Below are positions 37,352 through 40,973 of a stretch of DNA of 64,000 nucleotides, piece after piece. Every line of letters starts with the position of its first letter. Positions within the stretch are counted from its first letter, which is position 1. The translations under genes were made by a program, and so were the position numbers. A model generated the notes under the pieces. That model was given only the letters and a program-made list of their open reading frames with translations, was not told the DNA's origin and ran no database searches. Source of the DNA: Arcanobacterium canis. Lineage in GTDB: Bacteria; Actinomycetota; Actinomycetes; Actinomycetales; Actinomycetaceae. The stretch covers positions 1,488,001 to 1,552,000 of the forward strand of contig NZ_CP121208.1 of NCBI RefSeq assembly GCF_029625435.1, in the 5' to 3' direction.

Positions 37352-38065
37352 TTAAGCTCGACCTGGTTCCGACTGCGGCGTTGGGCTCGGCTGAGCGCCC
37401 CCGTCGGCACTGATCGTCCACTCGATAATCGGCGCCGACGTCGGCGCGGAAGAACCTCCTGCGGGCTCAATGGTGACAAAGACTTTCGCGCCCGGCTCCG
37501 GCATCAATTTGACGAATGAAAATGAGCCGTCTTTGCCAGGGGCGTATATGCCTCCGCTGGTAATTTTCCCGTCCATCTCTACCCACACCTGCAGACTTTG
37601 CCCGCGTGGGGCTCGCAGTTCCGCTGGGAATGTTACCGCAGCCATATCCATACTTTGCGACCACGTCAACGTCACTTTGTGACCATCATCCATCGTGGTC
37701 ATGGCACGTTCAACGTCTTGAGCTTCGTTGAGTGCAGCGTAGTGGCTCACGTTCTCCATTGAGCCCATTGCGCTCCACCGTCCCACACCGACGCCGACAA
37801 CAACGAGCGCCACCGCCGCCGCAGCGTTCATCGCCACTCGACTCCACCGACGTCGGCGCGAAATATCGACCACGTCTGCTTCGTGACGGACATTATCCAG
37901 AGGAGGTTGGGCATTATTCGCACCGATGAGGGCCATCAAGTTCTCGCGCACATGAGCTGGTGGCTCAGTGGGAGCCAAAGAGGCTCCGAGCACCCCAAGG
38001 ACCTCCGCTTCAGGGGTACCAAATTCGGGGTTGTCATGAGCGCTATCAAAACGGTCGTCTTTCAT
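37352..38065 (-). CDS. rskA: Anti-sigma-K-like factor (RskA family)
   Basis: Single-pass membrane anti-sigma factor, 237 aa. Cytoplasmic residues 1-72 should hold the sigma factor; a membrane helix spans about 76-95 (VAMNAAAAVALVVVGVGVG); the rest is an extracellular beta-rich RskA C-terminal domain (LPAELRAPRGQSLQVWVEMDGKITSGG-like). No zinc-binding HXXXCXXC is seen, as expected for RskA. ATGA overlap with the sigma gene gives tight stoichiometry. The tail is Pro/Ser/Gln-rich. Confidence 0.85.
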   Translation of the reverse strand: MKDDRFDSAHDNPEFGTPEAEVLGVLGASLAPTEPPAHVRENLMALIGANNAQPPLDNVRHEADVVDISRRRRWSRVAMNAAAAVALVVVGVGVGRWSAMGSMENVSHYAALNEAQDVERAMTTMDDGHKVTLTWSQSMDMAAVTFPAELRAPRGQSLQVWVEMDGKITSGGIYAPGKDGSFSFVKLMPEPGAKVFVTIEPAGGSSAPTSAPIIEWTISADGGAQPSPTPQSEPGRA

Positions 38066-38640
38066 CGCTCGCCCTCCAAAATTCTCTTCATTTTTGCCAA
38101 ACCATCACGGATCCGAGTTTTGACCGTTCCGAGAGGAACGCGTTGCAGATCAGCGATCTGCGCGTGAGTGAGACCAGTGAGAAACGCCAGCTCAACTGCT
38201 GATTTATGTGGCTCACCAATTTCTTCGAGCGCCGCCCGCACATCGCGAGCGACGATACGTTGTTCAACTTCTGCCACTGTTTCATCGAATTCACGTTCAA
38301 TCGGCACAGCATTGTCGCGGTCGCGTGCCGCCTGGGCTGAACGCACTCGATCAATTGCACGTCGTCGAGCCAGTGTCACGAGGAAAGCGCGGGCGCTCCC
38401 CTTCGTCGCATCAAAGGTATGGGCACGCTGCCATACTTCTAAGAACACTTCCTGGAGGACTTCTTCACTTTGCGCATGATCGACCACAATCGACACAATA
38501 AGTGTCAACAGCCTGCCTGACCACGTGTCATAGACACGTGCGAACGCATCGCGATCGCCTTGGGCCACCCGGGCAAGCGCCACAGAATCAATATCGGTTA
38601 TCACCGGGTAATCGTAACCTGCAACGCGCCGCTTCACCAT
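38062..38640 (-). CDS. sigK: ECF sigma factor, SigK-like
   Basis: Group 4 sigma factor, 192 aa from the chosen ATG. Region 2 reads FARVYDTWSGRLL to AQSEEVLQEVFLEVWQRAHTFDATKGSARAFLVTLARRRAIDRVRS; region 4 ends HAQIADLQRVPLGTVKTRIRDGLAKMKRIL. The start is uncertain: in-frame codons at 38718 and 38730 would overlap or abut dipZ but place a hairpin in the coding part. Its adjacency to RskA and DipZ, and SigK-like promoters at 40548-40575 and 40620-40647, support the SigK name. Confidence 0.85.
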   Translation of the reverse strand: MVKRRVAGYDYPVITDIDSVALARVAQGDRDAFARVYDTWSGRLLTLIVSIVVDHAQSEEVLQEVFLEVWQRAHTFDATKGSARAFLVTLARRRAIDRVRSAQAARDRDNAVPIEREFDETVAEVEQRIVARDVRAALEEIGEPHKSAVELAFLTGLTHAQIADLQRVPLGTVKTRIRDGLAKMKRILEGER

Positions 38641-38668
38641 GCGCCCGTCGTCGCGACTTTGGTGCCCG

Positions 38669-38701
38669 CCTCCCGACGCCGGTGGCACCGACGTCGGGAG
38701 G
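38669..38701 (-). terminator. Intercistronic hairpin between dipZ and sigK
   Basis: Arms cctcccgacg and cgtcgggagg pair fully and an inner cggtg/caccg pair extends them. It lies 26 nt after the dipZ stop and contains a CGACGTCG octamer. No T tract follows on the minus strand, so attenuation or RNA processing is as likely as full termination. Confidence 0.55.
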
Positions 38702-38726
38702 AAAGTCAGTGTTGTCATCACTCGGC

Positions 38727-40514
38727 TCACCCGAAGGTGAAAGAGTACAGTGCCACACCAGGATCGACACTGAGAGTGAGGACACCTTCAGTACCGCCTG
38801 CCTCTTCGATCAGGGTGATCATATTCGGAACCTGAGGAACAGCTACTTCCCCGCTTTTATCACCCATCTGCCAGCGGATCTTTCCTGATCCCGAGGCGAC
38901 AAGGTTCACTTGCTTGCCAAACCAATTGAGTTTGAGCTGCGCTCCCGGCTCACTTGGCGTAATCGACTGATCGTTGACTTTCCACCCGCCGCCGATTGCG
39001 AATCGGTTCATCGGGATATCTTCAGGAAAGGTCGCACGGTGCTCTCCGAGGGTAATCGGCTCACCCACCGCGTATTGTGCGCGCTGCGCACCCAAATATG
39101 TTTCGGGGCTACGCGGGCTTGATGTGACCTGGTCGTCGGAGGAAAACACTGCCGGTGGCAGCTCCACCTTCGGGTTGGCTTCCTTCAAGAGCTGGCGAAC
39201 GAGCTTCTCAGTGTTTGCCTCTCCACCTTCACCGTACTTAATCGCACGCACTTGTCCGGTCGAATCAGCCAGATAATGTGCAGGCCAGTAGTGATTATCG
39301 AAGTTAGTCCAGGTGGTGAGGTTCGAATCAACCGCTACCGGATAGGTGATGCCCAAATCTTTGACTGCTGCACGGACGTTACGCACTTCCTTCTCGAAGG
39401 CATACTCGGGCGAATGGACGCCGATCACTTCAAGTCCAGCATTCTTGTATGTTTCATAGAGCTTTTCCACGCCGGGGATCGAACGCTGGCAGTTAATGCA
39501 CGAATACGCCCAGAAGTCAACGAGGCTCACCTTGCCTTTTACTGACGCAGGCTTCTCTTGCTCAGTGTTGAGCCATGCCACAGGCGAAATCTGTGCGAGC
39601 GGGCCGCAATTGCCCAATTCAGTTGCACCGTCAGCACACGCGCCGCCGTTTGAACCGTGCAGGAGCGATTCCGTTTTCTGTTGTGCCGAGGCCGTCCAAT
39701 CAGGAAGTGCGCGTTGCAGATAGGCCGGGAGATTAAAGACCATTCCGATCGAGAGTGCGATGAGTGCGAGGCCAGCACCGATGCGGATTGCGCGCTGGCG
39801 AGATCGGAAAGCGTTGATTCGTTCAGCCAGGTGTCGGCCAGCAAGGGCGAAGAACAGAAGAGGAATCGCTGTACCGATGGAGAACGACAGTGCCAGGAGA
39901 GCGGTGTCTGCACCGATCATGCCGGTTGAGCCGGCAACAGCGATTGCCGCCAAGACCGGGCCAGCACACGGCACGTATGCAGCACCCAGCACCAGACCCA
40001 AGACAAAACCGTTCGACGAGTGAGTTTCACGGCGACCAAAACGTTCAAATGGCTTCTCAAGCAACTCCATAAAACGCGGGAAAAGCATCGCCACACCCAG
40101 CGTCGCCAGCATGATGATTCCCGCCCAGCGGATCGTGTCTTGCGGAAGGAGCAAGAGGTTGAGCAAAGTCGAGCCGAGCAAGGTAAAGAAGGTGAAGCTC
40201 AGGACGAGTCCGCCGACGACGAAGTATGGACGCCAGCGCGAAACTTCCGCCGCCGACGTCGGGCTGGCGGCTGTTGCAGTGTTGGCACGTGCGCCTGCCA
40301 CGCCGCTTCCAGAGGCGCCGATGAGGTTACCCGATGTGCCGTTACCGATGAGGTTGCCGCCGCCGACTCCGATAAGGTTCGACGTTGCGGCACCAGATTT
40401 GCCACGGGCGGACTGTAGACCTCCCGAGAGGAAGATAACGGGTAAGACAGGGAGGATACACGGTGAAATACCGGTAATGAAGCCTCCTAATAAGCCAATG
40501 AGGATGGTGACCAT
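38727..40514 (-). CDS. DipZ-like CcdA/thioredoxin-fold membrane protein
   Basis: Fused thiol-redox protein, 595 aa. Residues 1-265 form a CcdA electron-transfer domain with its paired cysteines C19 (ISPCILP) and C183 (VPCAGP). About 315-450 are an extracytoplasmic thioredoxin/TlpA domain with CINC at 339-342 and cis-Pro region [11 protein letters not shown]. The last 110 residues resemble the beta-rich C-terminal domain of mycobacterial DipZ. A Gly/Ala/Ser/Asn insert at 38-90 with three NLIG units sits between the first helices. Predicted to carry reducing power outward. ATG with AAGGATC ahead and a SigK-like promoter 33 nt upstream. Confidence 0.88.
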
Positions 40515-40547
40515 AGCGAGATCCTTTCACGATGTTTTCGAAAAGAC

Positions 40548-40575
40548 ATTCGGATCTACTGACGTGGTGGATTGG
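40548..40575 (-). promoter_or_regulatory. SigK-type promoter of dipZ-sigK-rskA
   Basis: Minus strand: CCAATCC (40575-40569), 15-nt spacer, CCGAAT (40553-40548), ending 33 nt before the dipZ ATG. The layout is close to the mycobacterial SigK consensus CCATCC-N17-CCGAAT (recalled) and equals the divergent copy at 40620-40647. Confidence 0.7.
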
Positions 40576-40619
40576 ATTCACTCACCTATTCTTCAGTGGC
40601 GTGGTTCACACCTTTTCGT

Positions 40620-40647
40620 CCAATCCATGCCGCATCGGGTTCCGAAC
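40620..40647 (+). promoter_or_regulatory. SigK-type promoter of the MSDGK lipoprotein gene
   Basis: Plus strand: CCAATCC (40620-40626), 15-nt spacer, CCGAAC (40642-40647), 52 nt before the ATG at 40700. Same elements and spacing as the divergent dipZ promoter. Confidence 0.68.
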
Positions 40648-40699: not shown

Positions 40700-40927
40700 A
40701 TGAATATCCGTAAGATCTCCGCTCTGACCATGATCGCTCTCGCTTCCGTTGCCGGCCTTTCCGCGTGCAATTCCGGTTCAGAAAAGATGACCAACGACAA
40801 GATGACCCACGCTCCATCGACCGACAAGATGATGGACGATAAGGACAAGATGTCCGACGGCAAAATGAGCGACGGCAAAATGTCCGACGGCAAGATGTCC
40901 GACGGCAAGATGTCCGACGGTAAGTGA
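40700..40927 (+). CDS. Small lipoprotein with MSDGK pentapeptide repeats
   Basis: 75 aa. Signal peptide with lipobox GLSAC (Cys near 23), then a short hydrophilic stretch rich in Lys, Met and Asp and five tandem MSDGK units to the C-terminus, encoded by 15-nt near-identical repeats at about 40850-40924. It resembles the small proteins described as pentapeptide MXKDX repeat proteins; their function is unknown to me. AAAGGA six nt ahead sets the start; the longer in-frame reading upstream crosses the promoter. Divergent from dipZ under a matching SigK-type promoter, so an envelope redox or metal-related role is possible (inference). Confidence 0.8.
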   Translation: MNIRKISALTMIALASVAGLSACNSGSEKMTNDKMTHAPSTDKMMDDKDKMSDGKMSDGKMSDGKMSDGKMSDGK

Positions 40928-40928
40928 G

Positions 40929-40973
40929 CAAAACCGGGTTCGATCCCTCCCAGAGGGTATCGGACCCGGTTTT
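40929..40973 (+). terminator. Terminator after the MSDGK lipoprotein gene
   Basis: Stem aaaaccgggttcgat with atcggacccggtttt (one mismatch), loop about 15 nt, with terminal T tract. It starts directly after the lipoprotein stop. Confidence 0.85.

Follow-up and report, generated by a model that had tools for sequence, protein, structure and literature searches.

The window analysed here, a stretch of 64,000 nucleotides of the Arcanobacterium canis genome, contains a short gap from which a dipZ-sigK-rskA operon and the gene for a small methionine-rich lipoprotein are read in opposite directions. This arrangement raises the question of whether both sides of the gap are controlled by the sigma factor encoded in the operon, and of what such a module would respond to. 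In M. tuberculosis, the signal that activates SigK has been stated as unknown, with macrophage contact as the only condition found (PMC7509140). The operon side of the locus consists of three genes:

38727 to 40514, minus strand: dipZ, with a CcdA/DsbD-type membrane domain (DsbD_TM), a thioredoxin/redoxin domain (CINC) and a C-terminal PF17991 domain, assigned with Pfam.
38062 to 38730, minus strand: gene for a sigK-like ECF sigma factor, with a GTG start and no cysteine, assigned from NF007228, PDB entry 4nqw and alignment.
37352 to 38065, minus strand: gene for an rskA-like anti-sigma factor, with RskA_C (PF10099) above cut-off and residues M100, M103, M125, M139, M141 and M188 in the extracytoplasmic domain.

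The product of dipZ matched the M. tuberculosis DipZ structures 5cyy and 2hyx in the PDB. For the sigma factor, the top NCBIfam model was that of SigK (NF007228; 187 bits, under its cut-off of 226), and the top PDB match was M. tuberculosis SigK (4nqw). Together with the PF10099 assignment and with the gene order dipZ-sigK-rskA, which is kept in 20 of the 20 relatives examined, these matches support the proposal of the initial annotation that sigK-like and then rskA-like genes lie downstream of dipZ. Use of the GTG start gives a four-base overlap between the sigma factor ORF and the dipZ stop, and the true start may be internal. SigK and RskA from the window contain no cysteines, so that the Cys133-Cys183 switch of M. 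tuberculosis cannot operate here (PMC7509140); the redox cysteines C133 and C183 are not universal in SigK, being conserved in 94% of ECF18 and in 56% of ECF19 (PMC7509140). Regarding variants of the gene order, a second dipZ was observed directly after rskA in Schaalia canis and in Schaalia sp. Marseille-Q2122 (dipZ-sigK-rskA-dipZ).

Analysis of the gap between dipZ and the lipoprotein gene revealed two exact matches to a SigK-type promoter:

40548 to 40575, minus strand: SigK-type promoter on the dipZ-sigK-rskA side, with CCAATCC (40575-40569), N15 and CCGAAT (40553-40548).
40620 to 40647, plus strand: SigK-type promoter on the side of the methionine-rich lipoprotein, with CCAATCC (40620-40626), N15 and CCGAAC (40642-40647).

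As originally described, the minus-strand site is located 33 nt (40515-40547) upstream of the dipZ ATG at 40514, the plus-strand site is located 52 nt upstream of the lipoprotein ATG at 40700, and both pairs of boxes have an identical N15 spacing. The mycobacterial consensus had been given in the initial annotation as CCATCC-N17, a spacing that has to be corrected: the Mycobacterium-like mpt83-dipZ-mpt70 loci (FAS1-dipZ-FAS1) show CCCATCC or CCAATCC-N15-CCGAAT upstream of their FAS1 genes, with the spacing observed in the window.

The two sites are the sole exact matches to CCAATCC-N15-CCGAAY in the window, and none appeared in 100 dinucleotide shuffles of the window. It had been considered that the pattern might occur at random frequency throughout the genome. 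This was not seen: a search of all 1,873,758 bases returned exactly two matches, both in the dipZ/lipoprotein gap and facing in opposite directions, and a reversed-pattern control of the whole genome returned none. With the relaxed pattern CCVATCC-N14-17-CCGAA, nine sites were found in the genome, namely the gap pair and seven scattered sites, most of them within coding sequence; a clear promoter layout upstream of linked genes was observed only for the gap pair. The existence of a larger SigK regulon in this genome was considered and rejected, as one-mismatch sites are mostly intragenic and the two intergenic ones are weak candidates. One of these (positions 197610-197637 of the genome) lies about 100 nt upstream of a macrodomain protein gene and might be a weak third target, and the other (1739326-1739353) lies about 250 nt upstream of a gene for a GltS-like glutamate transporter.

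The conservation of the sites was studied in 45 non-redundant related loci, with the best site in each direction compared with shuffled sequence; the named relatives belong to Arcanobacterium, Schaalia and Actinomyces. Sites with zero to two mismatches were present in both directions in 22 of 42 loci (the window and near-duplicates excluded), shuffled sequences averaging about four mismatches, and nine of those 22 loci showed an identical 72-nt offset between the divergent sites. Alignment of 50 sites gave 1-2 bits at most positions of the boxes and values mostly near 0 in the spacer, with a conserved GC at positions 20-21 even though these lie outside the search pattern. As a negative control, four dipZ loci without nearby SigK (Humibacter, Actinacidiphila and an Actinomycetales MAG) had no site. 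In Agrococcus and Microbacterium, a fasciclin lipoprotein (PF02469) occupies the same divergent position behind the same promoter, and several further actinobacterial families have single sites upstream of fasciclin lipoproteins related to MPT70 and to MPT83, an antigen of tuberculosis. SigK sites have been described as highly conserved among Actinobacteria, and SigK orthologues of different species recognise the mpt70 promoter (PMC7509140). Judged by these sequence comparisons, CCAATCC-N15-CCGAAY is a conserved actinobacterial SigK-type promoter, and a SigK-type sigma factor is almost certain to be the one that reads both gap promoters. The identity of the promoters and the structure of the module can be proposed with very high confidence.

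The initial annotation had further suggested that SigK autoregulates its own operon along with the lipoprotein gene, as a self-contained module. Comparison with other loci lends support to this idea, since the divergent pair is kept where SigK is linked and is missing elsewhere. Because the pair of sites is unique, conserved and absent at dipZ loci without SigK, an autoregulated module formed by dipZ-sigK-rskA and the lipoprotein gene is well supported, and the lack of any further exact site in the genome fits its self-contained nature. Autoregulation by SigK in vivo is, on this sequence evidence, highly probable. One promoter would drive dipZ-sigK-rskA, with SigK amplifying both itself and its brake RskA, and the other would drive a monocistronic mRNA for the methionine-rich lipoprotein, ending at a strong hairpin. 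The boxes could instead be real promoters read by a different sigma factor, without autoregulation, which we consider very improbable: the sigma protein of the window does score under the cut-off of the curated SigK subfamily, but the sites track SigK-linked loci, do not occur where dipZ lacks a nearby SigK, and are of a kind recognised by SigK orthologues throughout Actinobacteria (PMC7509140). A chance resemblance, in favour of which there is nothing beyond the shortness of the boxes, has a negligible probability and was rejected on the basis of genome-wide uniqueness, shuffles and the family-wide conservation of both sites.

The lipoprotein side of the gap contains the following features:

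40700 to 40927, plus strand: gene for a small lipoprotein of 75 aa, identified by ORF and composition, with a signal peptide and the lipobox LSAC followed by 53 aa with M-S-D-G-K repeats.
40846 to 40920, plus strand: 15-bp tandem repeat in five copies, encoding MSDGK, detected with Tandem Repeats Finder.
40931 to 40972, plus strand: strong hairpin with a short T run (RNA fold -33.7 kcal/mol, z = -6.7), the likely terminator of the lipoprotein mRNA, absent from the list of a consensus terminator scan.

The 53-aa part of the lipoprotein contains 17% Met, 19% Asp and 19% Lys, with no further Cys. A Pfam search of this protein gave no match, and no MXKDX-type model was matched in NCBIfam, its pentapeptide being M-S-D-x-K. 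Identity with HvfA, suggested by a weak NCBIfam match (E 0.0097), was dismissed, as the match is far under the cut-off and the repeats are without Cys. No fasciclin (MPT83/MPT70) relatives were found in the genome at E <= 1e-25. Orthologous lipoproteins occur at the same position in relatives. In 24 Actinomycetaceae loci they are short, DKMSD-type repeat lipoproteins with 5.6-31% Met in the mature part (mostly >10%); they are Asp-rich and usually Lys-rich, and nearly all lack Cys beyond the lipidated one. Six Actinomyces oris-type loci encode a similar signal peptide with a Gln/Gly-rich, almost Met-free body and have no lipoprotein-facing site, and each of eight A. oris-type genomes has one site, the dipZ-facing one. 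A lipoprotein-facing SigK site was present in 22 of the 24 loci with a Met-rich lipoprotein vs none of the six with a Met-poor one, counts that ignore shared ancestry, the A. oris-type loci being a single clade. From its sequence, the DKMSD-repeat lipoprotein is a new element of this system, replacing the fasciclin lipoprotein in nearly all sampled Actinomycetaceae.

It might be argued that this is an ordinary SigK module, in which the lipoprotein replaces the fasciclin protein as a surface spacer, adhesin or antigen and its methionines belong to a drifting low-complexity repeat with no redox role. The number and composition of the repeats do vary widely, and the nearly Met-free orthologue of A. 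oris-type strains retains a similar signal peptide. On the contrary, a high Met level has been maintained over three genera, the A. oris-type gene that lost its methionines is also the one without a lipoprotein-facing SigK site, and RskA shows a parallel Met enrichment. We regard this explanation as unlikely.

The methionines of RskA form a cluster in its ectodomain. Columns 100, 103, 125, 139, 141 and 188 hold Met in 25-30 of 30 Actinomycetaceae members; among 29 other Actinomycetia, Met occurs in at most two sequences per column. Residue H129 is conserved in 29 of the 30 Actinomycetaceae. The ectodomain is modelled by AlphaFold as a beta-sandwich (pLDDT about 90), and a fold search of RskA gave nothing significant and no telling structural neighbour. 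In the A. oris-type clade, the RskA cluster is kept next to a Met-poor lipoprotein, and the cluster is found mostly in one clade, so that shared ancestry confounds the association between it and the lipoprotein. An independent lineage from another family (G327; L210:4410-7610) has a 10-Met RskA ectodomain beside SigK. At that locus, a SUOX-type molybdoenzyme, split over two frames in the assembly, was observed between RskA and a small Met-containing lipoprotein, the latter located behind CCCATCC-N15-CCGAAT and with an ambiguous start codon (the in-frame start appears as ATC). Corynebacterium sp. HS2168-gen11 carries an Actinomycetaceae-like dipZ-sigK-rskA, including the RskA Met cluster, which looks like a horizontal transfer; no recognisable lipoprotein and no clear promoter pair were found at this locus.

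Methionine and histidine residues could also indicate a response to copper or silver, with the Met/His cluster of RskA sensing the metal, the Met-/Asp-rich lipoprotein acting as a surface metal sponge, and DipZ repairing metal-induced disulfide damage. RskA has an MxxM motif (M100, M103), M125 beside the conserved H129 and an MxM motif (M139, M141), and the lipoproteins of some relatives carry HMHDGMM or GHMHKH. In most relatives, however, His is rare and the methionines are about five residues apart with Asp/Lys, as in the MXKDX hypochlorite scavengers, and nothing at the locus was recognised as a copper pump, chaperone or cupredoxin. We regard a metal response, like the structural role of the lipoprotein, as unlikely but as a serious alternative.

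The explanation that best accounts for the locus, to which we give somewhat better than even chances, combines divergent SigK promoters with oxidant sensing by RskA, a sacrificial lipoprotein and DipZ. RskA, a single-pass anti-sigma factor, would hold SigK until an envelope signal arrives. We propose an oxidant as this signal, with hypochlorous acid or some other reactive chlorine species as the likeliest candidate, and the methionine cluster that characterises the RskA ectodomain in this clade as its sensor. Freed SigK would then lead to the synthesis of the surface-anchored methionine-repeat lipoprotein, which would absorb the oxidant as methionine sulfoxide, and of DipZ, which would pass reducing equivalents through the membrane to envelope proteins that have been oxidised. 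For a function as an oxidant-absorbing methionine sink, suggested by analogy with the MrpX/BcrX hypochlorite system as the nearest analogue, the chances appear about even. That oxidation of methionines in the RskA ectodomain is what frees SigK for production of the sacrificial lipoprotein and DipZ, with RskA as a methionine-based sensor in Actinomycetaceae, is a more tentative proposal, with the chances rather against it.

A methionine sink might be expected to have a repair partner, and an exported Msr or MsrP was not found in this genome. Its MsrA and MsrB have no signal peptide by inspection and look cytoplasmic, and a genome search for an MsrP-type molybdoenzyme (PF00174) found none; no exported methionine-regenerating enzyme is thus known here, which counts against the oxidant model. 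The substrates of DipZ may be other envelope proteins, or the methionine sink may be single-use. In other families, 22 of the 52 stretches have a molybdoenzyme next to FAS1, and SigK/FAS1 loci across the class have either dipZ or a SUOX-type molybdoenzyme nearby, never both in the stretches examined, some of which are short. In many Actinomycetia, a membrane-anchored PF00174 enzyme lies just upstream of the gene for a SigK-type fasciclin lipoprotein, in several cases behind a SigK-type promoter, and dipZ was not seen in those stretches. Since this molybdoenzyme is nearer to sulfite dehydrogenase than to MsrP, it is not taken as proof of methionine repair.

Beyond the initial annotation, the analysis adds the replacement of the fasciclin protein by a methionine-rich lipoprotein and the matching methionine cluster of RskA. 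A SigK variant in which both the output and the sensor domain are rich in methionine points to a testable signal, namely hypochlorite or other methionine oxidants. The locus would represent a Gram-positive example of the use of sacrificial methionines known from Proteobacteria. If oxidant sensing by the RskA methionines holds true, it would be a convergent counterpart of MrpX, and SigK systems generally, including those of tubercle bacilli, would be expected to respond to reactive chlorine from the host or to related oxidants.

Among known systems, the mycobacterial SigK-RskA regulon (mpt83-dipZ-mpt70 and sigK-rskA) shares with the window a SigK-type ECF factor, an RskA-type anti-sigma factor, DipZ, a SigK-driven lipoprotein and CC(A/C)ATCC-N15-CCGAAY promoters. 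The window differs in having all the genes in one locus, a lipoprotein built of a Met-rich repeat without Cys where the mycobacterial one has a fasciclin domain, a SigK without redox cysteines and an RskA with a Met cluster. In the streptococcal CcdA-Etrx/SdbB-MsrAB surface redox pathway, thioredoxins at the surface are supplied by a transporter of the CcdA type and act against oxidants outside the cell, an arrangement to which the CcdA-thioredoxin fusion of the window DipZ is comparable; the exported MsrAB described there was not found in the genome of the window (PMC3914529). Brucella BcrS-AbcS/BcrXQP, in which BcrX is a homologue of Azospira MrpX, comprises an ECF sigma factor with its anti-sigma factor and, encoded divergently, a methionine-rich MXKDX peptide, with promoters that face outward; it is induced by HOCl and gives HOCl resistance (PMC8315932). 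Azospira SigF/NrsF-MrpX and Brucella BcrS/AbcS-BcrXQP (ECF16) share with the window neighbouring genes for an ECF sigma factor and its anti-sigma factor, a divergently encoded pentapeptide-repeat protein rich in methionine, and outward-facing promoters of the adjacent sigma factor (PMC8315932). Their anti-sigma factors are six-helix proteins, unrelated to the single-pass RskA, their partners are MsrPQ instead of DipZ, and their product is a periplasmic peptide instead of a Gram-positive lipoprotein. As the protein families are unrelated, the likeness between the two arrangements would probably be a case of convergence.
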